A DNA stretch of 24,242 nucleotides from a virus. Below, one piece after another: positions 1,175-22,781 of this stretch (within the stretch, counting starts at the first letter, position 1; each line of letters opens with the position of its first letter). Under the pieces are notes generated by a model that was not told the origin of the DNA, searched no databases, and saw nothing but the letters and a program-made list of their open reading frames with translations. A program made the translations under genes and the position numbers. The stretch spans positions 1 to 24,242 of IMG/VR virus record IMGVR_UViG_3300033149_005745; one strand, written 5' to 3'.

Positions 1175-3310
1175 ATGATTTCGTACAAAAAGGGCAGAAT
1201 TTTGGTTCCACTTGAGGCGGACGCTGCTGTTATCCCAGATAGTTGGCTGGATATGTATGGGCGTGTTCTTCTTCCAGCCAAATGGGATGAGCAATCTTGG
1301 ATGTCGCTTTCCAAAAACGCTAAGCGTTTTGTTTATCTTTGCTTATCTAACTACAGTGTCTGGTTCAGACATATATTCCTTCCTTACGAAGGCCTTCGGG
1401 AGCGCGGCTATACTGAGGAGGAGACCGACGCGCTATATCCTTTTCGTCCACTTACGCCTGACATGACTGACTTTTCCGAATTTACCGGACTTCCCAGGTT
1501 TATGAATGACTACTGTAACCGGTTGGATAAGCATACTCCTTGGGGTTTTGTGGTTTCGGAGAAAAAGCCTGTCCATGATGATATTTGGAACTTGATGACC
1601 ATCCTTCCTACTGGTTGCTTTAAAAGCACTATGACGGGAATGGGCTTTTCATTGTTTGCGATTGGCCGCGATCCAACGGTGGCTATTTTAATCGCGGTGG
1701 AGACTAAGGAGCTGGGTGAGCGGTTCATTGTTACGGCTAAGGACCACATCAATCAGAACGAACGCTTCCGTTGGTTGCACGGCGATTTGCATGCTGATGA
1801 TAGTAGTGCGAAGTGGCAGACTACGGCCATAGTTGTTGATCGTCCCATAGATAGGTCAGCGCCTACGATGGAAATAACCGGCTACCGTGGGGCCATTCAG
1901 GGGTTGCGATTTGATATAGGTATAGGAGATGACTTGATTAGCCGTGAGAATTCACGCACTCCTGAGAGCCGTGCGCGGCTGATGGAGTGGATTGATGGTA
2001 GTGAGTTCCGTGGCCGACTCAACCCAAATCGGCGTATGCGGATTATTGTGGGGACGTTCCAGCGTTATGATGATTACTACCATGCCAAGAAGATAGAAAC
2101 ACTAGAGAAGAAGACCGGCATTTGGTCGTATGTTGAGGAGAAAATGATTCAAGGAGGTACTTGGCCTCCTAAGCTTGTTAATCCTGAGCGGGACAACGCC
2201 ATTGTTAAAGAGAATATTGTTGTGCCGGACGATTTGGTGACTATTTGGCCCGGGGAGTGGACGGCTGAGAAGCTAATTGATGAGTGGGTGGACAACGAGA
2301 CAACATTTGCACGCACCCGCCTTAACGAGGTTGTTGACCCAAAGAGTAAGATTTTCCAGGTACAATATTTGGAGGATATCAAAGCTGATGGCTACCACAC
2401 CAAGGACGGACTATTTCGTAAGCCTCTTCTATCCCGGTGGCCTGTGAGTGTGGGCATTCCCCAGGAAGGCTCCGACGTTTACCGGCTTTATACAGAACAG
2501 GGCTTTACCATAGAGCAGATGTTTTTTGTACTTTCGGTGGACCTTGCTTCGACCGAGACGTATACGTCTGACTATACGGTGTTCCATTTGTGGGGGTTTG
2601 ACCGGAATAGTTTGGTACGGGTTCTATTAAATCAGCTGCGGCGGAAAATGGCTGACCCGGACGTGATTGGGTCGCACCTGGCTACTTGGGTAAAGGCCTA
2701 TCGACCTGATAGATTGGTAGTGGAAGCGAACGCTGTTGAGAAGCTCTTTGCTCGGAGTTTGGTTGAAGTGGTCGGTCGTCCTGTGAATATTGTTGAGATG
2801 AAAGGCAACAAGATCGAGATGATCGAAAATGTTCGTGACTTGATTTCTTCTCGCCTGGTTTGGGTGCCGTGGGCAAACGATAACTATCGCACACCATATG
2901 TCTTTGCGTCGTTTATGGATGAACTAAATAACTATCCTATGGGACATGACGACACGGTGGCGGCTGCAGCACACGCGCTGTATGCTCTACGTCACTATGG
3001 CAGTCCCATCCGTGCTACTGTTGTACGGGGAAAGCCCCCCGAGGAGATGGCTGGTTACAATATTGAATTCGAGGAGGAAGCCGATGAAGATTTGATGGGC
3101 GTGCGGGTGTTTGGTGCGGGTGCTGCCCCTGTTGCGGTGACTGGGAGGCGGGCGAAGCCGTGGGATGTTCTGAATGCCATGGCAGCAGCTAGGCGGAAAC
3201 GGGCAGATGTCGTGGAAGACCCCCGCGATGTATTCCGCGCCGATCCAAATCATCCGGCGATACAGTATGAAAAAGCAGCAGCCAGACGTCCAACCGCTAG
3301 ACGTTCGTGA
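1175..3310 (+). CDS. terL: Terminase large subunit (packaging ATPase and nuclease)
   Basis: This is the motor that cuts and pumps phage DNA into the prohead through the portal. The ATPase part has a Walker A-like loop LPTGCFKST at residues 144-152, a Walker B strand GIGDD at 249-253 and a coupling-like VGTFQR at 292-297. The C-terminal RNase H-like nuclease has its acidic residues in SVDLA (D456), VVEAN (E517) and GHDD (D592/D593). At 711 residues it is long for the family: about 140 residues precede the P-loop, and a charged tail of about 100 follows the nuclease. The P-loop is unusual, with Phe149 where glycine normally precedes the lysine. The start is ATG 1175, with only a weak GGTG (1163-1166) upstream; the promoter position supports it. 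The last 44 bases overlap the portal gene. No small terminase gene is visible in the window. Confidence 0.95.
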   Translation: MISYKKGRILVPLEADAAVIPDSWLDMYGRVLLPAKWDEQSWMSLSKNAKRFVYLCLSNYSVWFRHIFLPYEGLRERGYTEEETDALYPFRPLTPDMTDFSEFTGLPRFMNDYCNRLDKHTPWGFVVSEKKPVHDDIWNLMTILPTGCFKSTMTGMGFSLFAIGRDPTVAILIAVETKELGERFIVTAKDHINQNERFRWLHGDLHADDSSAKWQTTAIVVDRPIDRSAPTMEITGYRGAIQGLRFDIGIGDDLISRENSRTPESRARLMEWIDGSEFRGRLNPNRRMRIIVGTFQRYDDYYHAKKIETLEKKTGIWSYVEEKMIQGGTWPPKLVNPERDNAIVKENIVVPDDLVTIWPGEWTAEKLIDEWVDNETTFARTRLNEVVDPKSKIFQVQYLEDIKADGYHTKDGLFRKPLLSRWPVSVGIPQEGSDVYRLYTEQGFTIEQMFFVLSVDLASTETYTSDYTVFHLWGFDRNSLVRVLLNQLRRKMADPDVIGSHLATWVKAYRPDRLVVEANAVEKLFARSLVEVVGRPVNIVEMKGNKIEMIENVRDLISSRLVWVPWANDNYRTPYVFASFMDELNNYPMGHDDTVAAAAHALYALRHYGSPIRATVVRGKPPEEMAGYNIEFEEEADEDLMGVRVFGAGAAPVAVTGRRAKPWDVLNAMAAARRKRADVVEDPRDVFRADPNHPAIQYEKAAARRPTARRS

Positions 3311-5144
3311 TGAAACAATTGAGAGTAGGCACGGCCCAGTTGATGCTCGGGTTTACCATTTTGCGGCGGGTACACCACAAGGCCCGATGTTGGGGATGGT
3401 TTCTGCCGCCGAGGGCATGCTCGATCGCGTGGTAGGAGGCTCAGCGCAGATAACAGATGAGACCGCCAAGCTGTTTGCGGCATATGCCAAGAGTAAGAAG
3501 GTGGCTACCCCACCTGTTGATCTAAATACGTATGTGTCGTTGGCTGATGAAGCAACTGTGCATGCGTGTATAGAGGCCAAGGTGGTTAGTATCTGTCAGC
3601 AGGGTTATAAGATACGCCCTCGTTGGGAACTGGCTGTGTTGGACCAGTCGCTGGCGCCCCTATCTGACATGTATGAGGCGCCTGTTGCCACGGATGAGCA
3701 ACTTAAGAAAGTTAGGCCTCAGCTGGAGAAGGCCGAGGCGTTCTTGTCATTGGGTATGCCTGACGAACCTTTCCCTGACCTGTTGGCTGGGATGTGGCGT
3801 GATTTGGAAACGGTGGGCCAAGGCTTTATTGAGTTTTCTCGCGATAAGCAGGGTGTTATTGACGGTATGTCTCCGTGCAAGGCGGTCACAATACGGTTCC
3901 TTGCTGATGGCTCTGGGTACATACAGATTCGGAATGGCAAGCGGAAGTTCTTTGCTAAATACACAGCGGATAAGGAGGAACGATATCGTTCAGTCAAGAT
4001 TGAAGCTGTGAAGCAGCAGTTGGGTGCCGGGGGTAGCAACTACGAGGTGATCGATCTTCCTGTTATGTGGGGGACGTTAGATAGGGGCATCCCTATTGGT
4101 TTGTTTAATAAGGCGATCACTGAGCCTGGTGATGTGGCTGCTGAGAAGGTTACCGAGCTACTTTGTATGAAGAAGGGCACGTCTAAGGATACGCTTTATG
4201 GTGAACCCGATACGATGTCAGCCGCCTATGATTTATTCGGGGCTAAATACGCAGCTGCGTTTAACGCTTCCTACTTTGAAAACTCAACAGTGCCACGTAT
4301 GGCGATTATTGTGCGAGGAGGGGAGCTGACATCAAAGGTGACTGATGCTATTCAAAGGTGGCTTAACGAACAGCAGCAGATTGATGCGATGAATAATGTG
4401 TTGATAATTGAAGTGCCTGGTATGGAAGTGGAGATTGAAAAGTGGGACCTGTCGGTTTCGCAGCTTAACGAATCTGGGTTTAATGAGTTTCGTGATCTTT
4501 GTGATCATCGTATTATGCGAGTGCATCGTGTGCCTCCCAGCGTTATTGCTTCGATAGAGGGACTAAACAGGGCGGTTAGCCAGGAGGCCAACTGGCAGTT
4601 TCTGGCGCAGGTCGTTCGCCCAGAGCAGCGGCGTATCGAATCTAGGTTCAACTATATTCTGCGGGAGGATTTGGGTCTGAAGGATGTAATGCTTGACCTT
4701 GCCCAGCCAGAGCTTATTTCGGAAAGGGAGCGGGCCGAGATATTCTCCATCCTTATGGGGAGGGGCGTGGTGAGCATTAACGAGGTGCGCAGGTACTATG
4801 GCAGGCCTCCAGTGGCCGGCGGTGACGAGCCATTTCTTAATTCTTTGGGCGTAGGGATTTTGCCTGTGCGTTTGGTTGAGGAAGTAGTGCGAGCTAATCT
4901 CGGTGTGGGGGCTGAAAACGGTAATGGTGAGGCTAAGCCACTTACTAGCGATATGAAGACGCCGCCCAATTCTGCCCCAATTTTTCAATTGCCTAATGCG
5001 TCCAAGGCGCTGTTTAATGCGATGGCGGTAGGGCAGCTTACTTCAGAGCAGCAGATGGATACGGCGATGATACTGGAGGATTTGGGTATTCCACAGATGG
5101 TGAGGTTTGTGCCGGAGGCCACCAAGGAAGATGATGATGTATAG
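3267..5144 (+). CDS. Portal protein
   Basis: This protein would form the dodecameric ring at one capsid vertex through which DNA enters and to which the tail attaches. It fits the HK97/SPP1-like portal family. YGEPDTMSAAYDLFGAKYAA is followed by FENSTVPRMAIIV (about residues 337-349) and then RVHRVPPSVI at 418-427 and LNRAVSQEANWQFL, with the long C-terminal helix region after it. These blocks are the conserved core of such portals. I prefer ATG 3267 (MKKQQPDVQ, 625 residues), a 44-base overlap with the terminase gene. The frame stays open to an earlier ATG at 3174, but those 31 extra residues look like out-of-frame terminase coding sequence. Neither start has a strong ribosome binding site, so coupling to terminase translation is likely. 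The acidic C-terminus ends with tandem stops (TAG TGA). Confidence 0.93.
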   Translation: MKKQQPDVQPLDVRDETIESRHGPVDARVYHFAAGTPQGPMLGMVSAAEGMLDRVVGGSAQITDETAKLFAAYAKSKKVATPPVDLNTYVSLADEATVHACIEAKVVSICQQGYKIRPRWELAVLDQSLAPLSDMYEAPVATDEQLKKVRPQLEKAEAFLSLGMPDEPFPDLLAGMWRDLETVGQGFIEFSRDKQGVIDGMSPCKAVTIRFLADGSGYIQIRNGKRKFFAKYTADKEERYRSVKIEAVKQQLGAGGSNYEVIDLPVMWGTLDRGIPIGLFNKAITEPGDVAAEKVTELLCMKKGTSKDTLYGEPDTMSAAYDLFGAKYAAAFNASYFENSTVPRMAIIVRGGELTSKVTDAIQRWLNEQQQIDAMNNVLIIEVPGMEVEIEKWDLSVSQLNESGFNEFRDLCDHRIMRVHRVPPSVIASIEGLNRAVSQEANWQFLAQVVRPEQRRIESRFNYILREDLGLKDVMLDLAQPELISERERAEIFSILMGRGVVSINEVRRYYGRPPVAGGDEPFLNSLGVGILPVRLVEEVVRANLGVGAENGNGEAKPLTSDMKTPPNSAPIFQLPNASKALFNAMAVGQLTSEQQMDTAMILEDLGIPQMVRFVPEATKEDDDV

Positions 5145-5461: not shown

Positions 5462-7648
5462 GTGCCCTATGAGAGCATATCCCAGCTTCCTGCCAGTTTT
5501 AAGAATTATAGCACCGAGCAGAAGAAGTATGCCCTTCGTGTGCTTAATGCCTTGCTGCGCGATTCCAGTTTGACCGAATCTCAAGCGATAGCCACTACCC
5601 ACGAGATGGTTCAAAGGAAGTTTAAGATTTCTAAACCAGGGGGGAAGGCTGCAATGATTGGTGACTTTTCATTCTTTGTTTCTGTCAACAAAGCGGAGTC
5701 GTCCGCCGATGGCGAGCTTCGTTTTGTTGGTCAGGCCTCGTCTGCTCTTGTTGATAAAGAGGGCCACCGTGTTACTGAAAAGGCAATTCAGGCTATGCGC
5801 AATTCCGGCCCAATTCCCCTTGTTGTAGCCGGAAGTCATGTGGAGGGTGAAGTCAGTGTAGCATCGCGAATTGGGTGGTGTTGGCCGGACGTTTCGGTTG
5901 ATGACCCCTCGGTACTTCGCATAAATGGCCGGCTGAAAAAGAGCCATCCGTTTGTGCCAGCTATTTATGAGGACATGACAGATGAGGCCCTACGGGACAC
6001 GATGAAGTTGTCTATTTCCGGTCGGCTGCCGCCGGGAGCGGTGCGGCACAGTCTTGACTCTAAGACTCATCGTGCCATTATGGAGATTGATGATATTGAG
6101 CTTCAGCACGTTTTGCTCTGTTCGGCAAACTCTGCGATAAATCAGGATACTTGGGTGGCACCGGTTGGTGATGGTAAGGCCCAGTTGGGTTGGACTGATA
6201 TGATTTTTAAGGCGGCGGACACTTTGGGCCGCCAGCCGGGAGGCACAGGCGAGGGTCCTGGCGGGGTTTGTGTCTGTCCTGAGTGTGGTTATGAGACTAA
6301 GCACGATACCGGCGAGCCTTGTTATGAGATGAAATGTCCAAAGTGTGGGTCCAAGCTGACTAGGCCGACTACTGGGAAGGCAAAACGTTCTGAGGCGGAA
6401 GAAGTGTCAAGCGCGACTTATGTTTGTGTTGAGTGTGGCTTTGAGGAGGCTATGGCTGAATATCGGCCTGATGGGTATTTTTGTAAGATTTGTGGAGGGA
6501 AGATGGCACCAAAGGAGGTTGACGCTGTGCCAACGACTAGGAATACAGCAAAGGCCGAGTTTGACGAAATTGCTGCCTATTATGATTTGTTGGGGAAGAC
6601 CATTTCTGAGATCACTCTCGAGGAATTGGAGAAGGCTAAGTGGACTACTGCGTATGTAAATGATCTTCCGGATTCTGCCTTCCTATATGTTGAAAATACG
6701 GGCAAGAAGGATGAAGATGGGAAGACTGTGCCACGAAGCGCAAGGCATTTACCATTTAGAGATAAGCAGGGCAACTATGATTGTCGTCATTTGCATGCAG
6801 CAGCAGCCCGTGCCAACCAGATTAAGGGTGTAACAACGACTATTAGTGCTGAGAAGAAACAGGCTTTGAAAGAGAAAGCACAACGGCTTTATAATAAACA
6901 CTGCAGTACAGCGAAAGCTGCTGATTCTAATACAGAAGGAGGCGAAAGTCTAATGGGTGAGTCCTTAGAAAATGCCAGCAGGCGGACTATTGGAGAGGTC
7001 CTAATGGCGGGGATTACACAGCTCCTCGGCACTGCCTCCCACACCAAGCTTGGGGATGATGCTCAAGCCGAGAAGGCTGGTTCTGATTCCAACGAGGCTG
7101 TTGAGGCAGTCGCCAAGGATGCCGAGACTCATTCAAGTGCTGAAGCTACCGGGGAAAAGACCGACATAGCTAAGCTTTTGGATGACCTTATTAACAAGGT
7201 AAGCGATTTAACCAATAAGGTTGATGCGCTTGAGTCTGCTAGCCAAGTGGACAAGACGAATGAGCCCGCCGATGATGGAGGCGAGGAGGAGACGGTTGAG
7301 AAGACCGAGGCCGATAAAGCCGAGGATACTCAAGTGGAACCGACTGCTCCTGAAGGCGATAATGTAGACAAGGTGGATGACGTCCCTACTGATGCTGTTC
7401 AAACTATCAATGACAACTTTGCTGAACTCTTTAAGCAGCTGTCTGCGATACAGGCGGCCCAAAGCGAGCAGGAAGCTCGGATTGAGGCGTTGTCTGGCAG
7501 TGTCGAGGTTATCGCCAAAGCCGATGGAATGTCGGCACAAGTACCACAGGGCGACGAGCCCGGCAATGGCGGGGGGGCCACTGAAGATGTGGCTCATATA
7601 TTAGCTCGTCAGGCTGAAAGCTGTTTCGGAAGGAGTGTGAGTACCTAA
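5462..7648 (+). CDS. Prohead protease-scaffold polyprotein with ChaB-like N-terminus and zinc ribbons
   Basis: This is a 728-residue multidomain head-maturation protein starting at GTG 5462, with GGGGG at 5448-5452 upstream. Residues 1-55 resemble ChaB (MPYESISQLPASF and a helical AIATTHEMVQRKF end). Residues 65-235 fit an S78-like prohead protease, with likely catalytic His126 (GSH) and Ser184 (KLSISGR) and a family-like end around CSANSAINQDTW. Two zinc ribbons follow: Cys272/275 with Cys292/295, and Cys322/325 with Cys341/344. Residues 394-490 (LPDSAFLYVE, KTVPRSARHLPF) match a module often found in phage protease or structural polyproteins, probably DUF6582. From 498 on the chain is acidic and coiled-coil-forming, like a scaffold. 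In known phages the protease removes the scaffold and the capsid delta domain; zinc ribbons are not a usual part. A nested scaffold start lies at 6953. Confidence 0.85.
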   Translation: MPYESISQLPASFKNYSTEQKKYALRVLNALLRDSSLTESQAIATTHEMVQRKFKISKPGGKAAMIGDFSFFVSVNKAESSADGELRFVGQASSALVDKEGHRVTEKAIQAMRNSGPIPLVVAGSHVEGEVSVASRIGWCWPDVSVDDPSVLRINGRLKKSHPFVPAIYEDMTDEALRDTMKLSISGRLPPGAVRHSLDSKTHRAIMEIDDIELQHVLLCSANSAINQDTWVAPVGDGKAQLGWTDMIFKAADTLGRQPGGTGEGPGGVCVCPECGYETKHDTGEPCYEMKCPKCGSKLTRPTTGKAKRSEAEEVSSATYVCVECGFEEAMAEYRPDGYFCKICGGKMAPKEVDAVPTTRNTAKAEFDEIAAYYDLLGKTISEITLEELEKAKWTTAYVNDLPDSAFLYVENTGKKDEDGKTVPRSARHLPFRDKQGNYDCRHLHAAAARANQIKGVTTTISAEKKQALKEKAQRLYNKHCSTAKAADSNTEGGESLMGESLENASRRTIGEVLMAGITQLLGTASHTKLGDDAQAEKAGSDSNEAVEAVAKDAETHSSAEATGEKTDIAKLLDDLINKVSDLTNKVDALESASQVDKTNEPADDGGEEETVEKTEADKAEDTQVEPTAPEGDNVDKVDDVPTDAVQTINDNFAELFKQLSAIQAAQSEQEARIEALSGSVEVIAKADGMSAQVPQGDEPGNGGGATEDVAHILARQAESCFGRSVST
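6937..6942 (+). promoter_or_regulatory. Strong internal ribosome binding site for a nested scaffold
   Basis: AGGAGG at 6937-6942 (within GAAGGAGGCGA) lies ten bases before an in-frame ATG at 6953 inside the protease-scaffold gene. It is among the best matches to the anti-Shine-Dalgarno sequence in the window, and it falls at the boundary between the conserved module and the acidic scaffold region. This makes a chance match less likely. Confidence 0.65.
6953..7648 (+). CDS. Nested in-frame scaffold protein (internal start)
   Basis: The ATG at 6953 is codon 498 of the protease gene and begins MGESLENASRRTIGEVLMAG, giving a 231-residue product with the same stop. The product has a short helical start, an acidic low-complexity middle (EEETVEKTEADKAEDTQVE) and two stretches suited to coiled coils (DIAKLLDDLINKVSDLTNKV; NDNFAELFKQLSAIQAAQ). 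These are typical of phage scaffolds. Making scaffold from an internal start in the protease gene is known from lambda (C and Nu3) and gives many free scaffold copies for each protease copy. That this happens here is inferred from the ribosome binding site and the domain boundary. Confidence 0.65.
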   Translation: MGESLENASRRTIGEVLMAGITQLLGTASHTKLGDDAQAEKAGSDSNEAVEAVAKDAETHSSAEATGEKTDIAKLLDDLINKVSDLTNKVDALESASQVDKTNEPADDGGEEETVEKTEADKAEDTQVEPTAPEGDNVDKVDDVPTDAVQTINDNFAELFKQLSAIQAAQSEQEARIEALSGSVEVIAKADGMSAQVPQGDEPGNGGGATEDVAHILARQAESCFGRSVST

Positions 7649-7649
7649 C

Positions 7650-8678
7650 ATGTCTGGAGTGATACCGGCGGCACAATATATCCAAAAAGCTGTGACCAGT
7701 GCCACACCAAACACAGCGTTTCTTCAGCTGCGTGGTGAGCAGCTGCGCTCGTTTATCGACCTTACTGTTGATACCTCAGTGATGTTGAAGGATGCTGATC
7801 ATCTGGTGTTGGATGCTCCCAGCCTAGATATTGCTACCCTCGATATCCCGGCTGGCCAGATGGCAATGGGGCTTGGTTATACCCAGCAGGTCCCGGCGGC
7901 TAACGAGCTGGCTCCTGTCTTTGGTGGACGGACCCTTACTCCTCAGCCGGCTGATATTCTCTATACATTTGAGAATACTTTCCTGCCTCGCTATAATATT
8001 GCGCGAGGTCAGTTGGCTGACGACATTGATACCGCCGTGCGCAAGACTATGGCGAATGAGTTCGAGCGCATCGGCATTATGGCCCAGGTTGGTGGGACCA
8101 ACCCGGCCGGTTACGCGCCTGGTAACATGACTACCATTGACGGGTGGCGCGTAAAGGCCAATGCTGGTCATATCTATGACCACGGAGGTGGCTATGTCAA
8201 CCCCGAGCTCTTTAAGGAAATGTGGAAGCTGCTGCCAGCTAAGTGGCGTGAGGATACGGCTCGGAAGAGCGACTGGCGGTTTTACGTTAATGACACCGTG
8301 GTCATCGAATACCGTGACTACTTGTCGCGGCGTACCACTGGGATTGGTGACCTGTCACTAACACAGGAGAACCAGCTGTCCTACGCTGGCATACCCATTG
8401 TGCCTGTTCCAGCGATATCGATTACTGAGGCAGGTGTACTGTCCCAGTCGGCATCTGCTGAGGAATTTACATTTGTTCTGCTCGTTGAGCGGGGCAACAT
8501 GGTCGTGGGTTATGGGCCGGAGATGACATTCCATCTGGGGCTGCGTCAGACCGACGGCAAGGTCCAGTATTATGCTTGGTGGGGCCAGTTCGATGTGCAA
8601 TATCGGCGCATCGACGCGGTGGTTTGCGCAGTGAACGTGAATCCCGTGGTTAATCCGGCATTGCTGGCTGCGTACTAA
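7650..8678 (+). CDS. Major capsid protein (HK97 fold likely)
   Basis: This is the shell-forming protein, 342 residues, directly after the protease/scaffold gene as is usual. Features consistent with an HK97-fold capsid are the NTAFLQLRGEQLRSFIDLT start, the LPRYNIARGQLADDID segment, a long mid-protein helix region (MANEFERIGIMAQV, NPELFKEMWKLLPAKW), a GIPIVPVPAI strand near 248-257 and a hydrophobic C-terminal end. There is no long N-terminal delta domain, which fits a separate scaffold. The ATG follows the upstream stop after one base. GGAAGGAG at 7628-7635 is the ribosome binding site, with a rather long 14-base gap. The call rests on position, length and general pattern more than on one diagnostic motif. 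Confidence 0.88.
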   Translation: MSGVIPAAQYIQKAVTSATPNTAFLQLRGEQLRSFIDLTVDTSVMLKDADHLVLDAPSLDIATLDIPAGQMAMGLGYTQQVPAANELAPVFGGRTLTPQPADILYTFENTFLPRYNIARGQLADDIDTAVRKTMANEFERIGIMAQVGGTNPAGYAPGNMTTIDGWRVKANAGHIYDHGGGYVNPELFKEMWKLLPAKWREDTARKSDWRFYVNDTVVIEYRDYLSRRTTGIGDLSLTQENQLSYAGIPIVPVPAISITEAGVLSQSASAEEFTFVLLVERGNMVVGYGPEMTFHLGLRQTDGKVQYYAWWGQFDVQYRRIDAVVCAVNVNPVVNPALLAAY

Positions 8679-8706: not shown

Positions 8707-8745
8707 TTGAGAAGCAGGGAATGAACAACAATGAGGTGAACAATG

Positions 8746-9225
8746 ATGGCTGATGAGCAAAAGCGGGCTGGTGGCTGGCTGTACATTCCGGACACGGCCT
8801 ATCACCCTGAGTCGTTTGTGGTGAAGTCTGTGGTTGAGACTGTTGAGGACCCGATTACCAAGCAGAACGTACCAATTTCTTATGTATTTAAGAAAATGGT
8901 AGCTCAGTTTGTCCGTACTGATGAGGACTATGAAGCGTTCCTTGCTATTATGGTTACTCGTCCGGGCCAGCGGGGTGTTGAGGGGTTGACGACGGAGCCA
9001 ATGTTTAAGACCGGCCGTCCTGAGGAGGATGGTCGACCTTTGGACCTAACCGATCCAGCAGTGTTGGCTCAGTTGAAGGAATTGATAGATACTCACCAAG
9101 CGAAGCAGTCCGATGAACTGGAGCCTGATATTGGAGTGGCTCACTCACTTTCAGCTGAAACTGCGTCTTCTCGTGGGGTGACTACGAAGGTTGTTGGGGC
9201 CCACGGCGTAGTTGATGGCGCTTGA
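8746..9225 (+). CDS. Unknown small head protein
   Basis: I do not recognise this 159-residue protein. It begins MADEQKRAGGWLYIPDTAYHPESF, has a compact mixed central part (VPISYVFKKMVAQFVRTDED YEAF) and ends in a hydrophilic, Ser/Thr-rich, probably flexible tail. GAGGTG at 8733-8738 is the ribosome binding site. The second ATG (8746) gives better spacing than the first (8743). A gene in this place, right after the capsid, is often a decoration, minor head or head-fibre protein, but nothing in the sequence proves that. A ten-codon frame (ATG 8721) overlaps the start and is probably meaningless. Confidence 0.75.
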   Translation: MADEQKRAGGWLYIPDTAYHPESFVVKSVVETVEDPITKQNVPISYVFKKMVAQFVRTDEDYEAFLAIMVTRPGQRGVEGLTTEPMFKTGRPEEDGRPLDLTDPAVLAQLKELIDTHQAKQSDELEPDIGVAHSLSAETASSRGVTTKVVGAHGVVDGA

Positions 9226-9241
9226 TATAGGGGGTGGGTCC

Positions 9242-10465
9242 ATGGGTATTCGGCTCACCCCATTCGGTTCTCGTTCGTATCATGTGGCGGGCGGGCCTGT
9301 ATCCCGTACTTACCACTTTGTGGCGGGCGAGTGGACTGAGGTAACCAATCCCAGCGACTTAGCCTATTTGCTGTCCAACGAAAATTGTATATTGCAAGAG
9401 GAGAAGCCGCTCGGCAACAAGGCCATAATTTGCCGCTGCGACGGGGATAAGACCAGGGCCCGCTTCGATGACGCTGCTGCAGGTGTTGAGTATTACAGGG
9501 AGTACGAAGCGGGCCGTATTTATAGTGTACCTTTACATGAGTACAAGGTGCTTAATAAGCGCCAAGATTTTCAAGAGGTTGATTTGGTAACGGCTTTATC
9601 GGATCGTCCTAGGATGCGGGTGTTGATAGTTCGGCCTAGGGGTTTGGGCGACTTGTTGCTTTCGCTGCCTGCAGTTGCAGCTATTCATAAGCGCTTTCCA
9701 AATGCCTCAATAGTATATTCGTGTGATGCTCATTATCGCGTATTGTTCTTTGATAACCCAGCAGTGACCAGGGCGGTAGAGCATTTCGAGGCATACGATT
9801 ATGCCCCTTATGACTACATCGCTGATTGGACTTATGGGGTTGAGAATCATCCTAGGCAGGCATCTGAGGCCCGCCCAGATTTGTTTGCTGAGATGGCGGG
9901 AATTACTAACCTTACTGACTACAGTATGTTGTTAAAGCCTATGCCTTCTCATGTTGAAAGGGTGGCAGGTTTGCTTCCAGACTCCCATCCTTTGGTGGCA
10001 GTGCATGTACGTGGTGCTAACTTTAGGCGGGTGCCTTCGCAGGAAAAGCTGGTTGGGATAGTGAGGAAAATGGTGTTGGCTGGAATGACACCAGTGTGTC
10101 TACATCACGTCCGTGAGACCATTTGGGACATTGATGGGGTAGTGAATTTGACCGGTCGAACAGACGTAGGTGACCTTGTTGCCGTAGTTGATGCGTGTGA
10201 TGCCGCGTTGGTTGGTGATTCTGGTGTGACGCACGTGGCAAACGCACTGAGCAAGCCGACATTGGCTCTTTATGGCCACGTTGATTACAAGCTGCGTATA
10301 AAGGGACAGCCTAATTGTACGGTCATCCAAGGCAACTCCTATGTTGGGTGTCCACCCTGTAATGACCATCAGACCCACCGGTGTGACCCTCCTCCTCGCT
10401 GTTTGGATATGATACCTGATGAGGTTATTATAGAGAGGCTAAAGGAAGTAGTAAAATGCCGATAA
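9242..10465 (+). CDS. Structural-like N-terminal domain fused to family 9 glycosyltransferase
   Basis: Residues 125-407 form a glycosyltransferase of the GT9 (heptosyltransferase-like, GT-B) type. The signs are MRVLIVRPRGLGDLLLSLPA at the start, an HVRGANFRR segment in the second half, GDSGVTHVANALSKPTLALY from residue 325 with Asp326/His331, and the C-x2-C...C...C cluster (CPPC, HRC, RCL) near the end that many GT9 proteins have. Such enzymes move a sugar from a nucleotide carrier to an acceptor. Residues 1-124 are not part of that fold; RTYHFVAGEWTEVTNPSDLA YLL looks like a short phage head or fibre domain. ATG 9242 is preferred because GGGGG at 9230-9234 sits seven bases before it; starts at 9215 or 9212 (TTG) would add 9 or 10 residues. 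The gene lies between capsid and connector genes and overlaps the next gene by ten bases. The acceptor is unknown: a capsid protein or host glycan is possible. Confidence 0.85.
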   Translation: MGIRLTPFGSRSYHVAGGPVSRTYHFVAGEWTEVTNPSDLAYLLSNENCILQEEKPLGNKAIICRCDGDKTRARFDDAAAGVEYYREYEAGRIYSVPLHEYKVLNKRQDFQEVDLVTALSDRPRMRVLIVRPRGLGDLLLSLPAVAAIHKRFPNASIVYSCDAHYRVLFFDNPAVTRAVEHFEAYDYAPYDYIADWTYGVENHPRQASEARPDLFAEMAGITNLTDYSMLLKPMPSHVERVAGLLPDSHPLVAVHVRGANFRRVPSQEKLVGIVRKMVLAGMTPVCLHHVRETIWDIDGVVNLTGRTDVGDLVAVVDACDAALVGDSGVTHVANALSKPTLALYGHVDYKLRIKGQPNCTVIQGNSYVGCPPCNDHQTHRCDPPPRCLDMIPDEVIIERLKEVVKCR

Positions 10466-11238
10466 CTCAAGCAGCCGACCATGAGGTTTCTGGACTTTCC
10501 GACGAGCGCTACTGTAATGTAGAGGACGTAATTACAGTGCTCAAACGGGTTTCTGTGGACAGTGAACAGGAGACCTTGGGTGCGTGGCTTGATCATGAGA
10601 CTCGTGACGAGGTTATTAGGTTTTACATACCGGATGCTCGACTATGGGTTAATGGTAAGGCGGGTCATGATTTTGATTACCACCAGAACGTTGCCATTGA
10701 AGTAGATGGTAATGGATTGGACTGTTTGGATTTGTCTAAGTATGGCTTTGTGCCACTGCTTGCTGTAGCGGACCTTGTTATTTCGAATAGTGCCCAAGAT
10801 TCCGACGATTATGTGTATTACTCTGATGGACGTATAAGACCTGTTGAGCAGGTTACTAGCATTAAGTATACGACTGGCCGGCCCTACCCATTCTTTTTGT
10901 CGGGGGCGCAGAATGTTGAAATGACAATAACTTGGGGGTATGTGACTCCTCCTTACGACATTCGGATGGCCCAGGCGCGGAAGGTGGCTGCCGATATTTT
11001 AGTGGAATTGGATACGGCTGATGCTGAGGACGGGGTGGTGCCGGGTGGAGCGTCGCGATTGACTTATGGTGACCTAAACATTCAGGTGGGTACGGCAGGG
11101 CGCTTTGCTGCTGCCGTAAAGGCATTGGAATTGCGGGCGCTAGATGCTTGTCGCCGACACCGCTTCCCGAAGGTATACACGGCAGAGTCTCGTATCGTTG
11201 GTTCCTACGCCAGAAGTTCTGGTGTAATGTGGGACTGA
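10456..11238 (+). CDS. Head-tail connector (gp6-like)
   Basis: This 260-residue protein probably docks below the portal to extend the DNA channel. The first 50 residues are polar and helical (DERYCNVEDVITVLKRVSVD). The middle is beta-rich with tyrosines, and residues 155-185 (TWGYVTPPYDIRMAQARKVA ADILVEL) match the helix block common in gp6-like connectors, where a G-x-VP-x-(D/E)-I segment is followed by an alanine-rich helix. AGGAAG about eight bases upstream is a good ribosome binding site. The start overlaps the glycosyltransferase stop. Its place after the head genes and before tail completion genes fits. It is longer than the usual 100-200 residues because of the central beta region. Confidence 0.65.
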   Translation: MPITQAADHEVSGLSDERYCNVEDVITVLKRVSVDSEQETLGAWLDHETRDEVIRFYIPDARLWVNGKAGHDFDYHQNVAIEVDGNGLDCLDLSKYGFVPLLAVADLVISNSAQDSDDYVYYSDGRIRPVEQVTSIKYTTGRPYPFFLSGAQNVEMTITWGYVTPPYDIRMAQARKVAADILVELDTADAEDGVVPGGASRLTYGDLNIQVGTAGRFAAAVKALELRALDACRRHRFPKVYTAESRIVGSYARSSGVMWD

Positions 11239-13646: not shown

Positions 13647-13671
13647 TTGATAATCGGGAACTGATGTGATT

Positions 13672-14004
13672 ATGGCCGATCCTACTAATAAGGGGACTGT
13701 TTATACATTTACGACAGCTGATATGAATTTGGTTTGTACTCTATTGTGCTTCGACGGGATATTTTTGAAGAGCACTGAGGCGCAGCCTTTGCCAAGACAT
13801 TTGAAGGAGGAAGGCAGGCGGCCACGGTGCATATTTACGCTAGCATCGGCAGATAACGCAAAGCTGTTGGGACTGATAAAACAGCATCGAGAAGTGCGTA
13901 ATGGTGCGAGTGTTCCCAGCAAACGATATGATGAAGTGCGTAGGCATGTTGTTATACCCGCAATGAACGACGCGCAGGACCGATTAGAAAATAATAGAGA
14001 ATAG
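13672..14004 (+). CDS. Small unknown protein (DUF5659-like pattern)
   Basis: This is a short basic protein (110 residues from ATG 13672; GTG 13666 adds two). YTFTTADMNLVCTLLCFDG, then CIFTL and KLLGLIKQHREVRNGASVPS with a final RYDEVRRHVV resembles the pattern of small phage proteins grouped as DUF5659, but this is from memory of the pattern. The upstream GGGA is a weak ribosome binding site. It lies between the tail tube and the chaperones; its role in the tail is unknown. Confidence 0.6.
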   Translation: MADPTNKGTVYTFTTADMNLVCTLLCFDGIFLKSTEAQPLPRHLKEEGRRPRCIFTLASADNAKLLGLIKQHREVRNGASVPSKRYDEVRRHVVIPAMNDAQDRLENNRE

Positions 14005-14039
14005 AATACTAAAATCCGCCAGTAGCGGAGGAGATGACA

Positions 14040-14582
14040 ATGGGAAATTTGACTGATGAACGAAAAGCACAAATCCTTGACAAGTTGGCACTGAGGGCCG
14101 ACCTTGGTGAGAGCGACCGTATACCGTTGACTGGTCCGGCCGGAGAGGACATCGGGGATGAGTATTGGGTAGTGCTCCGGGAGGCTAATGCCGAGCAGAT
14201 TAGTCGCCTCGAGTCTCTTTTTATGAAGGAGACTGTGCACCGCGAGATTAAGGATGATGGCACATTAGATGAGCTTATCGAGCGGCGTTATGACACATTT
14301 GGCCTTCTTAGAGAGGTTGTTGTTATGCGGCTGATAAAGGACGCCCGGTTGCCACGGCGCACTAGTAGTGGCATTGAGGCGGTTGCTTGGCCTCGGCAAA
14401 GTTCGGAGCAGAGGAAGATGCTCAATGAGGTGCCTCCAGCACTTCTAGGTGTTCTTTTCCGCGCCATTAACGATTTTTACTTTGGTGAGGAGACCATAGC
14501 GGTGGAGAGCGAATCCGGCGAGTTGGAAGCGGTTCTTGACCAGCAGGCGGTGGTTGGTGAGTTAAAAAACTTGCCAGGCTAG
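14040..14582 (+). CDS. Tail assembly chaperone (G-like), frameshift donor
   Basis: This 180-residue, mostly helical, acidic protein sits between tail tube and tape measure, the place of lambda G. It starts MGNLTDERKAQILDKLALRA and contains a helix-rich centre (LLREVVVMRLIKDARLP) and NDFYFGEETIAVE near the end. Chaperones of this class coat the tape measure during tail assembly. ATG 14040 is preferred because GGAGGAG (14027-14033) sits six bases before it; ATG 14034 would add two residues but touches the ribosome binding site. The reading frame ends at TAG 14580-14582, 10 bases after a slippery heptamer that would send a fraction of ribosomes into the next gene. Confidence 0.75.
   Translation: MGNLTDERKAQILDKLALRADLGESDRIPLTGPAGEDIGDEYWVVLREANAEQISRLESLFMKETVHREIKDDGTLDELIERRYDTFGLLREVVVMRLIKDARLPRRTSSGIEAVAWPRQSSEQRKMLNEVPPALLGVLFRAINDFYFGEETIAVESESGELEAVLDQQAVVGELKNLPG
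14564..14570 (+). other. Programmed -1 ribosomal frameshift site A_AAA_AAC
   Basis: In the G-like frame the codons are TTA AAA AAC, so the heptamer is A_AAA_AAC, a canonical X_XXY_YYZ slippery sequence. The next gene is in the -1 frame. That frame has a TGA at 14558-14560, so the two frames overlap only from 14561 to 14582, and the slippery site falls exactly there. After slipping, reading continues CTT GCC AGG CTA GTG without a stop. Only a weak downstream stem (GGAG 14587-14590 with CTCC 14600-14603) is visible as a possible stimulator. Confidence 0.88.
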
Positions 14583-14998
14583 TGGGGGAGGCCGCTGTAC
14601 TCCAAGGTGATGTTTCGGTTTTGGAGATAGTTGTTCAGCAGCGGTTAGGTAAGATACTTGAGCAGAAAGAGCCCGCTAGCCACATTAGCGAACTGGAAGC
14701 CAAGAAGGACCCTCGGTTTCAGACTGAAGATGGTCGGTTGGATAAGGTTAAGTACCGTGAATATCTAGCCAGCCTTAGTCAACTGGTACGAGAAGCAGAC
14801 CCTGAGATTGATTCGACTTGGATCGAACGAAAGATGGCCCGCTTCATAACCCATCGTGTCGAGGAAGCTGAAATTTTCTTTGAGCTCCATCTGCTACCGG
14901 GAAATGTTCCTTGGAACAGGATAGCCCATTGGCGGATTGCTATTTGGCAATCTTATGCCCATGGTAAAGCCAAGGCAATGAGGGAAAAGTACCGTTAG
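14582..14998 (+). CDS. Tail assembly chaperone extension (T-like), expressed by frameshift
   Basis: The open frame really begins at 14561 and, by slipping at 14564-14570, joins the G-like protein to a roughly 142-residue extension, about 319 residues in all. The extension is helical and charged (VLEIVVQQRLGKILEQKEPA, YREYLASLSQLVREADPEID) and ends in a Trp-rich helix (WRIAIWQSYAHGKAKAM). A GTG at 14582 overlaps the G-like stop codon (TAGTG), but no ribosome binding site precedes it, so independent initiation is less likely than fusion. In lambda the fusion protein bridges tape measure and tube subunits. Both forms here should be made in a fixed ratio. Confidence 0.8.
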   Translation: MGEAAVLQGDVSVLEIVVQQRLGKILEQKEPASHISELEAKKDPRFQTEDGRLDKVKYREYLASLSQLVREADPEIDSTWIERKMARFITHRVEEAEIFFELHLLPGNVPWNRIAHWRIAIWQSYAHGKAKAMREKYR

Positions 14999-15058
14999 TT
15001 GGTGGAGTTTTGTGTTTATGGGCTGTTGCGAAACTGGTTCGCCTTTAGGATGATAATG

Positions 15059-15658
15059 ATGTTTAGACTAGTTTGGGATGACGCAAGTCAATTATGGTTT
15101 GACCAGCTGTCTACTCAGTTTCCGGCACGGCTGGCCAAGGCCACCCAAATAGCCATGCGTACAGCAGCGGACGCCGCGTTGCGGGCTGCGAAGGGCGATG
15201 CACCCGTATTTGAGGGGTGGCTGCAGAAGGATTTGCGCATGTTTCCTCTGAATATTATCAATGCGGGGCGCTTTAGTATTCGCATAGGGGAGAGTGGGGC
15301 ATTGCTTATTAGTGGAGAGCCTGTGCAGAAATACGATCCATTTTCGTATGCATGGGCAAAACATTCAAAAGCTGCGCCACACCGAGTTTGGCTATATGGC
15401 GTTGGGGGGAAGGAAACGTGGGCTAGAAAGAAGCTGCGCCGATGGTTCAGGGAGTATGTTTCCAGCGACCTCCCCACGACTGAGGCCGGATATCGCGAGC
15501 AGCGACCCAGCTATCCTCCATATATTGACGTGGACCCAGGTAAGACTGCTCAACCATTTTTTCGCGAACGGATCGAGCCTAACGGCGGTATGGTTTATGA
15601 CAGGTTTAGGCGCGAGATGAAGACTTTGGCAAAGATGTACTGGCGCAAACCTTGGTGA
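15059..15658 (+). CDS. Unknown tail-region protein, weakly gp10-like
   Basis: This 199-residue basic protein starts at ATG 15059, with AGGA at 15047-15050; ATG 15056 and 15050 and a TTG at 14999 are possible earlier starts without better support. An N-terminal alanine-rich helix (LAKATQIAMRTAADAALRAA) is followed by GDAPVFEGWLQKDL and a beta strand (RFSIRIGES), which is reminiscent of the HK97 gp10 layout in which a helix leads to 'aPv.tG.L..si'. The C-terminus is rich in aromatic and basic residues (KKLRRWFREY, PSYPPYIDVDP). A gp10-like protein normally lies before the tail tube, so its place before the tape measure would be unusual. The family is uncertain. Confidence 0.6.
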   Translation: MFRLVWDDASQLWFDQLSTQFPARLAKATQIAMRTAADAALRAAKGDAPVFEGWLQKDLRMFPLNIINAGRFSIRIGESGALLISGEPVQKYDPFSYAWAKHSKAAPHRVWLYGVGGKETWARKKLRRWFREYVSSDLPTTEAGYREQRPSYPPYIDVDPGKTAQPFFRERIEPNGGMVYDRFRREMKTLAKMYWRKPW

Positions 15659-15663
15659 GTTAA

Positions 15664-18600
15664 ATGGCAGACGCTGATGTAACCCTTGGGCTAAAAGTAA
15701 CTGCTGATATTTCCGAAGCAACCCGCATGCTGGAAGGGTTGCGTGGCAAGGCTGGTAGCATTGGTGGTGCCGGCGGTATTGGCGGTACTCGTGATGTTAG
15801 TGGCGTTGGTGCTACTAGCGCTGCTCGCCGTGGCATTTCTGAGATGGCAGTGGAGGTGACAAGGCTAAACGAGAGTAGGAGAAATCTTCAAGCTAGAAAT
15901 CTTACTGTTATACAGAGCGAGAAGTCCCTTGCTACTGCCTATGAGCGTTTGCGGAAGCGAAGCTCTGAGGTTACCCAAGCCGAGCAACTGTATCAAGATG
16001 CGCTCAAAATACGGGCAGGTTTGACTAAGGAGAGTACACAGGCTGAAAGGAATGCCGCCGCTGAGACGGTAAGAAGGGCCAAAGCCGAGAAGGAGCTTGC
16101 CGTTGCAAGGGCGCAATACACGCGGGCAGAGGTACGGCAAGGGGAGAAGGTTGTGGCTCAGCGTAAAAAGGAATTGGAAAGAAAGAAGGAAATGGAGCAA
16201 AAAGAAGGCCAAATGATTGCCCGCGCCAAACAGGAAATGATGCGCGACTTGGCTCGGCGTGAGGCGATAGAGCAAAAGAAAGGCCAAATGATCGCCCGTG
16301 CCAAACAGGAAATGGAACGTGACTTTGCACGGAGGCGGGCATTGCGGGCAAGGGAACTGCGGGAAGAGCAGCGAATGTTGGCGCTACATATACGTGCATT
16401 GAAGGAGTATGCAAAGGCACGAATGTCGATGGGCGTACAAGGCGTTGCCCGTAACATTCTGGGAGGTATTGGTAGAGTTTATGGCAAAATACAGGGGATG
16501 TTTTCCTTTGGTCTGAGGACCTACTGGGTATTTTTGTCTATTATGTATGCTATTCGCAATATCATCCGTCCGTTTACCCGGATGGTTGAGACGATGGTGG
16601 AGGGCTTTCGCAAGATAATTGGGTTGGCTGTGCAATTTGTGAAGTCGGTAGTGAATGCGGCTAGTGAGATGGAGATTCTGGAGAAGCGAATGGGGGCGCT
16701 CTTCGGTATGGGCATGGGGGCAGAAGGCAGGAAGATGATGGGCGAAGATGCGCTTCAATATGCCATGAACATGTCAGTCGGGATAAAGGCGGTATGGACT
16801 GATATTGCTGAGGCTATGATCAAGGGCTGGGCTCTTGGTTCGGAGATTATACCAAAAGCATTTCCGGAAAAGGGGATCAAGGGCGTTATACCGGCCGCGT
16901 TGGATTTAGCTGCAGTGTTTGGGAGGACAGCCGAGGAAGCTGCGGAAGCTATAATGAAGGGGGCCACAGGATGGTTTAGGTCATTGAGGGCATCGTTCGG
17001 CATTCTTCCGAGTCAAGTTCTAAGATATGGAGGAGTGCCTGGTCGGAGACCGGGAACATTGGCTGGGGCGGAGGCTGGGCCTGAAGCGCACGCTAGGAAT
17101 CTTTTGGCTATTATTAGTTTAATCGAAGATCGTTATGGTGGCATGGCCCGGGCGATGGCTTATACATTTGCAGCGGCGTTGGCTGATGTGCAGGATATGT
17201 GGGCGCACTTTGCATACGCGCTGCAGCGGCGTGGGTTTCTCAAGCCATTGGCTGATGCGATTTTTAAGGTTCGTGATAGGTTTTTCGAATTGACTGAGGA
17301 AGGATATAAATTAAAGAAGGAAGGCATTTTGGATTATATTGCTTGGCAATTCACTCAATGGTCGGAGCGGTTGCGTCCAGTGTGGAACTGGCTTGCCGAT
17401 AGAGTTGAGCCAATCCTTATTGTGGTTTCCGGTTGGTTGGATAAGATCGGCATAGCGTTTGACGAGTGGTACGCTAGGTCTGGTGGGATAGAGGGCATAA
17501 TGACGAAGGTGATGGGGGTCGTGGTTGATTGGGCCCCACACGTAATTGCATTCTTCCGCACATATTTACAGCTTGTGTTGTCGTTAGGGGACGCATTGTT
17601 ATGGGTATTTGAACAGGCGCTTTACATGGCGATGGCTGCTGCCGCACTGTTGGGCAAACCAAAGGCGGTCAAGGCTATTGGAGCTGCGTACACCGCTGTG
17701 ATTGCTACTAAGAAAGAAGCGCTTCCTTGGTTGATGGAGAAAGAAGAGGCAATAGGGGGAGGGATACAGGAAAGAGTAACTATATCAGCCGCCGCCCGCC
17801 AGGATGTGTTGGCGCGTGGTGGCACAGCCGAGCAGTCGTTACAGGCAGCCCAAGCAGTGCTACTTAATTCTGAGGCGTTTGAAGCGTGGAAGGAATATTT
17901 GGGCCCACAAGCGTTGGGTCAGGAAGTGGGCCCGGTACCTATGGCAGGTCGCAGTGAGGCAGTGCGAGCCGCCCAAGCTAGAGTTAAGGAGTTTGAAAGG
18001 ATAGCAAGTAAGGGGGCAGCAGCCGAAGGGGTAGCCGGCGGGGAGGGCGAGCAGAAGGGCATCTTCCGTAAATTGTGGGAGGTGCTTGGCAGGCTGGTTG
18101 ATGTTTTGGGGAAGTTAAACACAACCCTTAAATGGCTTGGTTACGCCTTGGTTATACTTCAGGGTATTTCGATGATGGGAAAGGTTGGTAGGGGACTAAA
18201 GACAATTAAAGATATAGGACTGTGGCTGTTTGGAAGGGCTGCTGGAGGCTCGTATGGTTTTATTCCTCCAGGAACGGGAGCCGCTGCTACTGGATGGGGT
18301 GGTAGAATAGCTGGATGGGGTGGTAGAATAGCTGGATGGGGTGGTAGAATAGCTGGATGGGGAGCCGGAGCTGTTGGAGGGCTTGGGCTGAGTGGATTGG
18401 GTACCATGAGTGCTGGTGCAGCCATTAGCGCGGCGCCCCTAGCTGTGACTGGTTTGGCACTTGCTGCTGGTGCTGGTGGTTATGGGATTGGTTATGCAGC
18501 GCGGCGGTACATTCCTGGGTTTGAGTCTTGGCTAGAAGAACTAGGCGATGCCTTGGGTAGCTGGTATAGTCAGATGGTCTACGGAATGCCACCGCCTCCT

Positions 18601-18708
18601 CGACTTGAAATTAAGGTTGTTCCCACCGACGGTCTCAACGCTCAAATCCGTCAAATGGATAGCCCCGGGTATTATTCTAGGTATGGTCGTCAGGCAGGTA
18701 GAAGCTAA
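15664..18708 (+). CDS. Tape measure protein
   Basis: This is the longest gene of the window (1014 residues), in the tape measure position directly after the chaperones. The order is: a Gly-rich start, about 200 residues of highly charged coiled coil (residues 60-255, including two 25-residue repeats), hydrophobic helices (TYWVFLSIMYAIRNIIRPF; HVIAFFRTYLQLVLSLGDAL), a WGGRIAG tandem repeat near 877-900, and a glycine/alanine-rich membrane-like segment (APLAVTGLALAAGAGGYGIG). Tape measures set tail length and are ejected with DNA. At about 0.15 nm per residue this one would give a tail of roughly 150 nm. GGTGAG upstream is the ribosome binding site. No lysozyme or peptidase domain is evident. 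The stop shares a base with the next start (TAATG). Confidence 0.92.
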   Translation: MADADVTLGLKVTADISEATRMLEGLRGKAGSIGGAGGIGGTRDVSGVGATSAARRGISEMAVEVTRLNESRRNLQARNLTVIQSEKSLATAYERLRKRSSEVTQAEQLYQDALKIRAGLTKESTQAERNAAAETVRRAKAEKELAVARAQYTRAEVRQGEKVVAQRKKELERKKEMEQKEGQMIARAKQEMMRDLARREAIEQKKGQMIARAKQEMERDFARRRALRARELREEQRMLALHIRALKEYAKARMSMGVQGVARNILGGIGRVYGKIQGMFSFGLRTYWVFLSIMYAIRNIIRPFTRMVETMVEGFRKIIGLAVQFVKSVVNAASEMEILEKRMGALFGMGMGAEGRKMMGEDALQYAMNMSVGIKAVWTDIAEAMIKGWALGSEIIPKAFPEKGIKGVIPAALDLAAVFGRTAEEAAEAIMKGATGWFRSLRASFGILPSQVLRYGGVPGRRPGTLAGAEAGPEAHARNLLAIISLIEDRYGGMARAMAYTFAAALADVQDMWAHFAYALQRRGFLKPLADAIFKVRDRFFELTEEGYKLKKEGILDYIAWQFTQWSERLRPVWNWLADRVEPILIVVSGWLDKIGIAFDEWYARSGGIEGIMTKVMGVVVDWAPHVIAFFRTYLQLVLSLGDALLWVFEQALYMAMAAAALLGKPKAVKAIGAAYTAVIATKKEALPWLMEKEEAIGGGIQERVTISAAARQDVLARGGTAEQSLQAAQAVLLNSEAFEAWKEYLGPQALGQEVGPVPMAGRSEAVRAAQARVKEFERIASKGAAAEGVAGGEGEQKGIFRKLWEVLGRLVDVLGKLNTTLKWLGYALVILQGISMMGKVGRGLKTIKDIGLWLFGRAAGGSYGFIPPGTGAAATGWGGRIAGWGGRIAGWGGRIAGWGAGAVGGLGLSGLGTMSAGAAISAAPLAVTGLALAAGAGGYGIGYAARRYIPGFESWLEELGDALGSWYSQMVYGMPPPPRLEIKVVPTDGLNAQIRQMDSPGYYSRYGRQAGRS
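16195..16344 (+). repeat. Two 75-bp tandem copies coding for a 25-residue coiled-coil repeat
   Basis: Copies at 16195-16269 and 16270-16344 encode EQK(E/K)GQMIARAKQEM followed by (M/E)RD(L/F)ARR(E/R)A(I/L). Twenty of 25 residues are identical. The DNA copies differ at several synonymous and non-synonymous sites, so the duplication is not very recent. A 25-residue period lengthens the helix without stopping it. Confidence 0.85.
18290..18362 (+). repeat. Perfect 21-bp tandem repeat, 3.4 copies, encoding WGGRIAG
   Basis: The unit GGATGGGGTGGTAGAATAGC plus T begins at 18292, 18313 and 18334, with a partial fourth copy (GGATGGGG) at 18355-18362. The copies are identical at every base, including silent positions. 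They encode GWGGRIA three times within the tape measure, next to a membrane-like segment. The perfect identity suggests a recent or actively changing slippage array. Confidence 0.95.
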
Positions 18709-21485: not shown

Positions 21486-21490
21486 TTTCG

Positions 21491-21742
21491 ATGAGGCTGC
21501 AATTTGATTCAGATATGGATATAGCGCGGCAGGCTGACGAGCTGAAACGCATCCACCGGCGCGGTGCTCGCGGTGCTCGGGAAGAAGATGCCATGGTTGG
21601 CGCATTGTCCCCATCGTTGGACGCGGCAGGGCGGGCACATGTTCGCTATATGGTTGGGTATTACTTTGATGGTGATACTCTTATTGAGGTTCCCACAGCC
21701 AGCTACGGAATGAGTTATTATGGTGGGGAATATTATGGCTAA
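21491..21742 (+). CDS. Small unknown tail-tip protein with Tyr/Gly-rich end
   Basis: This 83-residue protein starts at ATG 21491; GAGGAG at 21477-21482 lies eight bases upstream, whereas a GTG at 21482 overlaps that site. The N-terminal half is helical and basic (ARQADELKRIHRRGARGARE); the end is ASYGMSYYGGEYYG. It overlaps no other gene once started at 21491 and lies between the hub-like and fibre-like genes. I do not recognise a family. A small protein here could join hub and fibre, but that is position alone. Confidence 0.6.
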   Translation: MRLQFDSDMDIARQADELKRIHRRGARGAREEDAMVGALSPSLDAAGRAHVRYMVGYYFDGDTLIEVPTASYGMSYYGGEYYG

Positions 21743-21761
21743 TGAACGTAGGTGAGTTTTT

Positions 21762-22763: not shown

Positions 22764-22781
22764 CGTAACTGGTGGTGACTG

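Follow-up and report, generated by a model that had tools for sequence, protein, structure and literature searches.

A gene conserved within the head operon of four uncultivated tailed-phage contigs encodes a two-part protein, in which a GT9-type glycosyltransferase follows an additional N-terminal region of 124 residues. We propose, with a probability of about 0.5, that the product is a clade-specific GT9-type protein glycosyltransferase which, aimed by its N-terminal domain, would decorate a virion protein during head assembly. The window analyzed here is the whole IMG/VR record IMGVR_UViG_3300033149_005745, a tailed-phage fragment of 24,242 bases.

Genomic context of the fusion gene

The genes from the terminase through the putative connector all run in one direction, and the enzyme is embedded among them as follows:

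1175-3310, + strand: terminase large subunit (Pfam PF17289, E 6e-9; phrog_38, E 3e-58)
3174-5144, + strand: portal protein (Pfam PF04860, E 1.9e-20; phrog_12)
5462-7648, + strand: putative prohead protease with a zinc-ribbon insert and a scaffold-like acidic tail (position and homologs)
7650-8678, + strand: major capsid protein (phrog_1623, E 6.3e-37; tblastn matches to annotated major capsid proteins)
8743-9225, + strand: 160-aa protein between the capsid gene and the enzyme (conserved in the clade; orthologs in three contigs)
9230-9238, + strand: ribosome-binding-like GGGGGTGGG 5' of the enzyme start (sequence)
9242-10465, + strand: GT9 fusion protein, 407 aa (ATG at 9242, stop at 10463-10465; ORF and translation; fusion also present in three further viral contigs)
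10456-10465, + strand: overlap of 10 bases between the enzyme stop and the downstream gene start (across the four contigs the overlap measures 10-23 bases)
10456-11238, + strand: putative head-tail connector/adaptor (by position equivalent to the annotated head-to-tail adaptors of related phages)

The initial annotation had described an enzyme gene sharing strand and overlap pattern with its neighbors, and this is borne out: its ATG lies 16 bases past the upstream stop on the same strand, and its end overlaps the downstream gene, whose Shine-Dalgarno sequence AAGGAAG (10442-10448) lies within the enzyme gene. Between the head-operon genes no convincing promoter or terminator was found, the candidate counts equaling those in shuffled sequences. 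The location originally given, between the major capsid and connector genes, holds as regards the shared head operon; the 160-aa gene nevertheless intervenes, and the connector is named by position only, its product having no Pfam or PHROG profile match. Placement of such an enzyme in a head operon is unusual, yet it has precedent.

The C-terminal GT9 region

The protein itself is divided into the following parts:

9242-9613, + strand: N-terminal region, rich in beta structure, residues 1-124 (the GT9 match in structures and profiles starts at residue 111-125)
9245-9412, + strand: weakly YqbF-like stretch, residues 2-57 (structural alignment with 2hjq)
9614-10462, + strand: GT9/GT-B catalytic region, residues 125-407 (Pfam PF01075, PDB profile matches, structural alignment)
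9650-9652, + strand: Asp137, equivalent of WaaF/WaaC Asp13 and TibC Asp110 (profile alignment; invariant in four homologs)
10214-10234, + strand: GDSGVTH, residues 325-331, GT9 donor-site loop (WaaF/WaaC alignment; GD-x-G-x-x-H invariant)
10349-10402, + strand: cysteine cluster C370-x2-C373-x7-C381-x5-C387, probably a metal finger (each Cys is kept in the four homologs)

The motifs by which a GT9-type enzyme was first recognized (RPRGLGDLLLSLPA, GDSGVTH and CPPC...RCL) are present, and Pfam, PDB profile and structural results agree with that assignment. The PF01075 (GT9) profile matched with E 1.2e-11 and 44.8 bits against a cut-off of 22 (Pfam search), a cut-off exceeded by the fusion proteins of all four contigs. 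When a profile of the four homologs was run against PDB sequences (hmmsearch), it retrieved 3tov (1.3e-13) and 1psw/WaaF (1.8e-13) as well as WaaC, and residue 125 of the fusion aligned with WaaF residue 1. AlphaFold2 modeling of the whole protein gave a pTM of 0.62, with residues 112-407 mostly at pLDDT 60-90, and the model aligned with 3tov (Z 25.1), WaaF (1psw; Z 23.8), WaaC (Z 21.3) and TibC (Z 20.6 over 296 residues, for model residues 57-407). As in GT9 members, the GT-B fold has two lobes, the first loop carries the catalytic Asp, and DSGxxH lies in the C-lobe.

Asp137, GD[ST]GxxH and the four cysteines are unchanged among homologs down to 31% identity, and the combination of GT9 fold and invariant catalytic motifs predicts that the enzyme is probably active. 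The position of WaaF Lys195 is occupied, in the profile register, by Arg263, which is invariant in the fusion family. The best named families by sequence were LPS heptosyltransferases (TIGR02193, 51.6 bits, far under the cut-off of 185), and no nucleotide-sugar gene was recognized within the window.

The N-terminal region

Residues 1-124 are foreign to ordinary GT9 enzymes, because the latter start at the equivalent of residue 111-125. The initial reading of this region as something other than glycosyltransferase therefore stands: it is absent from ordinary GT9 structures and has no Pfam, PHROGs or PDB sequence match. In three of the four homologs a Met is found at the junction with the GT9 part, a trace to be expected if an entire GT9 gene had been joined on. 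As a separate observation, this ATG codon (residue 125, 9614-9616) would permit a GT-only product from an internal start.

Modeled alone, the region came out rich in beta structure and with a single helix, the confidence being modest (pLDDT 57); in the whole-protein model residues 45-112 fell under pLDDT 50, and Foldseek with the region alone gave no match at E<=0.001. Structural alignment against 995 chains returned a single one at Z>=5, that of YqbF (2hjq; B. subtilis skin prophage, PF14553), which matched residues 2-57 of this pLDDT 57 model with Z 5.5, rmsd 2.5 and 21% identity over 47 residues, unrelated chains reaching 4.6. YqbF itself carries no glycosyltransferase, and the PF14553 profile did not match the region at E<=10. 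Because the score is barely above that of unrelated chains and finds no support in sequence tests, the likeness may be followed as a weak lead. The earlier suggestion of a head- or fibre-like domain is thereby retained in part: the best structural match, although weak, is a prophage head-cassette protein, whereas no fibre match was obtained. In the skin prophage the yqbF gene is presumably flanked by the capsid gene yqbE and the connector gene yqbG, which would correspond to the position of the enzyme gene. The yqbG product is a connector homologous to SPP1 gp15 (PMC9701221).

Two other ideas about this region were discarded. Its interpretation as two copies of a motif from the post-capsid small proteins of other phages failed, with shuffled sequences scoring equally (hmmsearch), and the score of a putative internal repeat was reached by 24 of 60 shuffles (hhalign). 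A comparison with the upstream 160-aa family scored above all 60 shuffles (hhalign; E 0.008, probability 5%), which is suggestive at most.

Conservation and distribution

Relatives were found by bait searches with the capsid and connector proteins, which yielded three more contigs: IMGVR_UViG_3300033149_003258 (L007), IMGVR_UViG_3300031227_000475 (L009) and IMGVR_UViG_3300033149_004821 (L002). The same two-domain order beside capsid genes, initially noticed in a single sequence, recurs at the same place in each of them, and the succession capsid–small protein–two-part enzyme–connector is found in all four contigs. Identity to the window in the three contigs was 60/59/31% for the fusion, 72/68/37% for the capsid and 71/66/36% for the connector; the fusion diverges slightly faster than the other two, yet travels with the head genes. 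For the closest pair (L007 and L009), dN/dS was about 0.12 in the fusion (0.17/0.98 in the N-terminal part and 0.13/1.22 in the GT part) versus 0.11 in the capsid gene. The fusion is under strong purifying selection, and both of its parts are constrained.

According to annotation and the family profile, the glycosyltransferase is absent from outgroups with related capsids (Vibrio, Streptomyces, Rhodococcus, Pseudomonas, Agrobacterium and Aeromonas phages; contig L029), which carry only small proteins, or other ORFs, at the position of the enzyme; none is annotated in Bacillus PBP180. Given its conserved place, the constraint and this absence in outgroups, the fusion is settled in the head operon and specific to this clade, and not a passing cargo gene. 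Neither the fusion nor the capsid protein, used as queries, retrieved a prophage from 84,980 genomes, which is weak evidence of absence because the pattern step was narrow (a first scan missed two close relatives), and a plasmid search also found none. The clade size of four uncultivated contigs is a lower bound, since the collection scans were pattern-limited and once missed close relatives. Matches of the relatives' proteins to "Campylobacter phage A11a" were rejected as phage kin: that UNVERIFIED GenBank record (L021, MG065691.1) encodes E. coli WaaF at 3001-4029, likely a bacterial contamination.

Comparison with known glycosyltransferases

WaaC and WaaF (E. coli) and 3tov (Veillonella) share with residues 125-407 the GT-B fold (Z 21-25) and the equivalents of Asp13 and DSGxxH. 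They differ in lacking the N-terminal 124 residues and in having Lys195 where the fusion has its invariant Arg; in addition, WaaC and WaaF act on the LPS core, whereas the fusion gene belongs to a phage head operon and its product scores far under their family cut-offs.

The overall build also resembles that of TibC, a protein heptosyltransferase of GT-B fold that bears a barrel at its N-terminus and an iron finger (C339-342-358-370), and in which loss of the N-terminal 80 or 95 residues abolished acceptor modification (PMC4358343). TibC and the fusion are alike in length (406 and 407 aa, respectively) and in a GT-B fold with a GT9-like core; the beta-rich N-terminal region of the fusion and its four cysteines near the C-terminus may be counterparts of the TibC barrel and finger. 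The cysteines, all invariant in the fusion homologs and similarly placed, are spaced x2-x7-x5 in the fusion versus x2-x15-x11 in TibC, and the barrel likeness comes from model residues 57-112, which overlie part of the TibC barrel in a low-confidence stretch (pLDDT under 50). Membership of the BAHT family (TIGR04414, TibC/Aah) was rejected, as none of the four contigs matched the profile at E<=1. There is no autotransporter acceptor gene beside the enzyme, whose neighbors are head genes.

Corndog encodes an O-methyltransferase and three glycosyltransferases between its portal and protease genes, and these glycosyltransferases were present in infected cells and not in purified virions (PMC4351075). 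As reported by the papers citing Freeman 2023, Corndog gp38 and Che8 gp110 are needed for capsid glycosylation (PMC12363180, PMC11256854), and mycobacteriophage glycosyltransferases modify both capsid and tail tube (PMC12363180, PMC11256854, PMC12619734). Our comparison with Corndog gp36-38 and Che8 gp110, which are not known to be GT9 enzymes, is by description; the likeness is that of tailed-phage glycosyltransferase genes, Corndog's being in the virion operon. The fusion gene lies within the virion operon in 4/4 contigs, a trait of phage virion glycosyltransferases. In Corndog, however, separate genes together with the O-methyltransferase fill the portal–protease interval, whereas the enzyme described here is encoded by one gene, extended by the extra domain, in the capsid–connector interval. 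Related virion-glycosylating enzymes have been described from mycobacteriophages, none of them of the same type, place or build.

Proposed function and alternatives

A GT9 enzyme that is coupled to head proteins and carries an extra domain would be best read as a protein glycosyltransferase acting on a neighbor. It would be made with the head proteins and be translationally coupled to them. In the host cytoplasm the C-terminal part would transfer a sugar, perhaps heptose carried by an ADP-activated donor. The beta-rich N-terminal domain, whose origin may lie in the YqbF-like small proteins of the capsid–connector interval, would aim the enzyme at a head protein, be it the capsid protein, the neighboring 160-aa protein or a part of the connector. 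Virion proteins would then leave the cell glycosylated. Corndog and Che8 are a direct precedent for the modification of virion proteins; by analogy with Corndog, whose glycosyltransferases were found in cells and not in virions, the enzyme would act inside the cell and would not have to be part of the particle. Against this explanation count the nearest named families, which are LPS heptosyltransferases and not protein glycosyltransferases, TIGR04414 giving no match; so do the lack of a recognized nucleotide-sugar gene in the window and the poor models of the N-terminal part, which no sequence test links to YqbF.

A more elaborate version, which we offer as a tentative possibility, is self-aiming capsid glycosylation: the head-assembly domain of a capsid–connector small protein, fused to a GT9 heptosyltransferase, would dock on the procapsid and add sugars in place. 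This would make it the first GT9-based virion glycosylation system and a phage analogue of TibC.

Phage glycosyltransferases often modify host surface sugars, and the head-operon place could merely give late expression to an enzyme acting on LPS or another cell-surface glycan, leading to superinfection exclusion or receptor change. Although the nearest families by sequence are LPS heptosyltransferases, we consider this unlikely: host-conversion genes are usually separate, mobile morons, whereas here an additional domain is joined to the enzyme, the gene runs into that of the connector and, in 4/4 contigs, it has been passed on together with the capsid genes; late expression would be poor timing for exclusion. 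Alternatively, the N-terminal domain could be a head or neck part of a virion-bound subunit, with the glycosyltransferase exposed at the head surface or enclosed in it, where it would serve as a binding module or be an enzyme delivered on infection. The position in the head operon, the weak YqbF likeness of residues 2-57 and a conservation resembling that of structural genes are consistent with such a role, which nonetheless seems rather doubtful, as the Corndog head-operon enzymes were not found in purified virions (PMC4351075), the catalytic residues are kept, so that a purely structural role is not needed, and no fibre or decoration fold was matched. The masking of the particle or binding of host glycans suggested initially gained no support.

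Some proteins of GT9 fold are structural, such as the chloroplast NDH subunit PnsB1, which also matches the fusion, and the replacement of WaaF Lys195 by the invariant Arg263 (by profile register) could likewise indicate a non-catalytic protein retained to bind a neighbor or help it fold. The change from Lys to Arg is, however, conservative, and invariance of Asp137, GD[ST]GxxH and the four Cys down to 31% identity makes this reading improbable. No DNA-modifying role is known for the GT9 family, and coupling to a head operon is unusual for DNA modification; despite a DNA methyltransferase-like gene at 149-937, glycosylation of DNA or nucleotides is highly improbable. DNA-modifying glycosyltransferases are described as common in phages in work cited by PMC12619734, which counts in favor of the latter idea.

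If the preferred reading, a protein glycosyltransferase aimed at a head protein, is true, virion glycosylation would be widened beyond mycobacteriophages, could be traced in genomes by a simple signature and would come with a compact enzyme–acceptor pair, the acceptor being likely the product of an adjacent gene. Few phages have been shown to carry sugars on their particles; in those, the sugars weaken recognition by antibodies.

Other features of the window and its relatives

The DNA methyltransferase-like protein is encoded just 5' of the terminase and matches the C-terminal part only of PF01555 (E 9e-23). A peptide, LDLTDPxVLxQxKExxxSGxL, is common to the C-terminal part of the 160-aa family and the terminase C-terminus of two relatives (window 8743-9225; L007:17-358; L009:26-2149) and was not seen in the window's own terminase; perhaps it is a common docking tag.

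The putative protease contains a zinc-ribbon module (GPGGVCVCPECGYE..H..G.PCY...CPKCG; window 6230-6367), also found at L007:3294-3425, L009:5077-5208 and L002:3497-3628 (in L002 at a different place) and in L025-L035. Viral contigs with this module number at least 13, and the head modules of some are unrelated (in L031, for example, it forms a separate 96-aa protein), which gives the impression of a module that moves among phage head proteins. L025 and L026, found with the zinc ribbon as bait, have a different head module and no glycosyltransferase.

The genes at 13666-24242, including those for proteins of 1014 and 925 aa, have no confident Pfam or PHROG match, leaving the tail module nearly dark. 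The 925-aa protein is conserved in G003 (56% over 908 aa).
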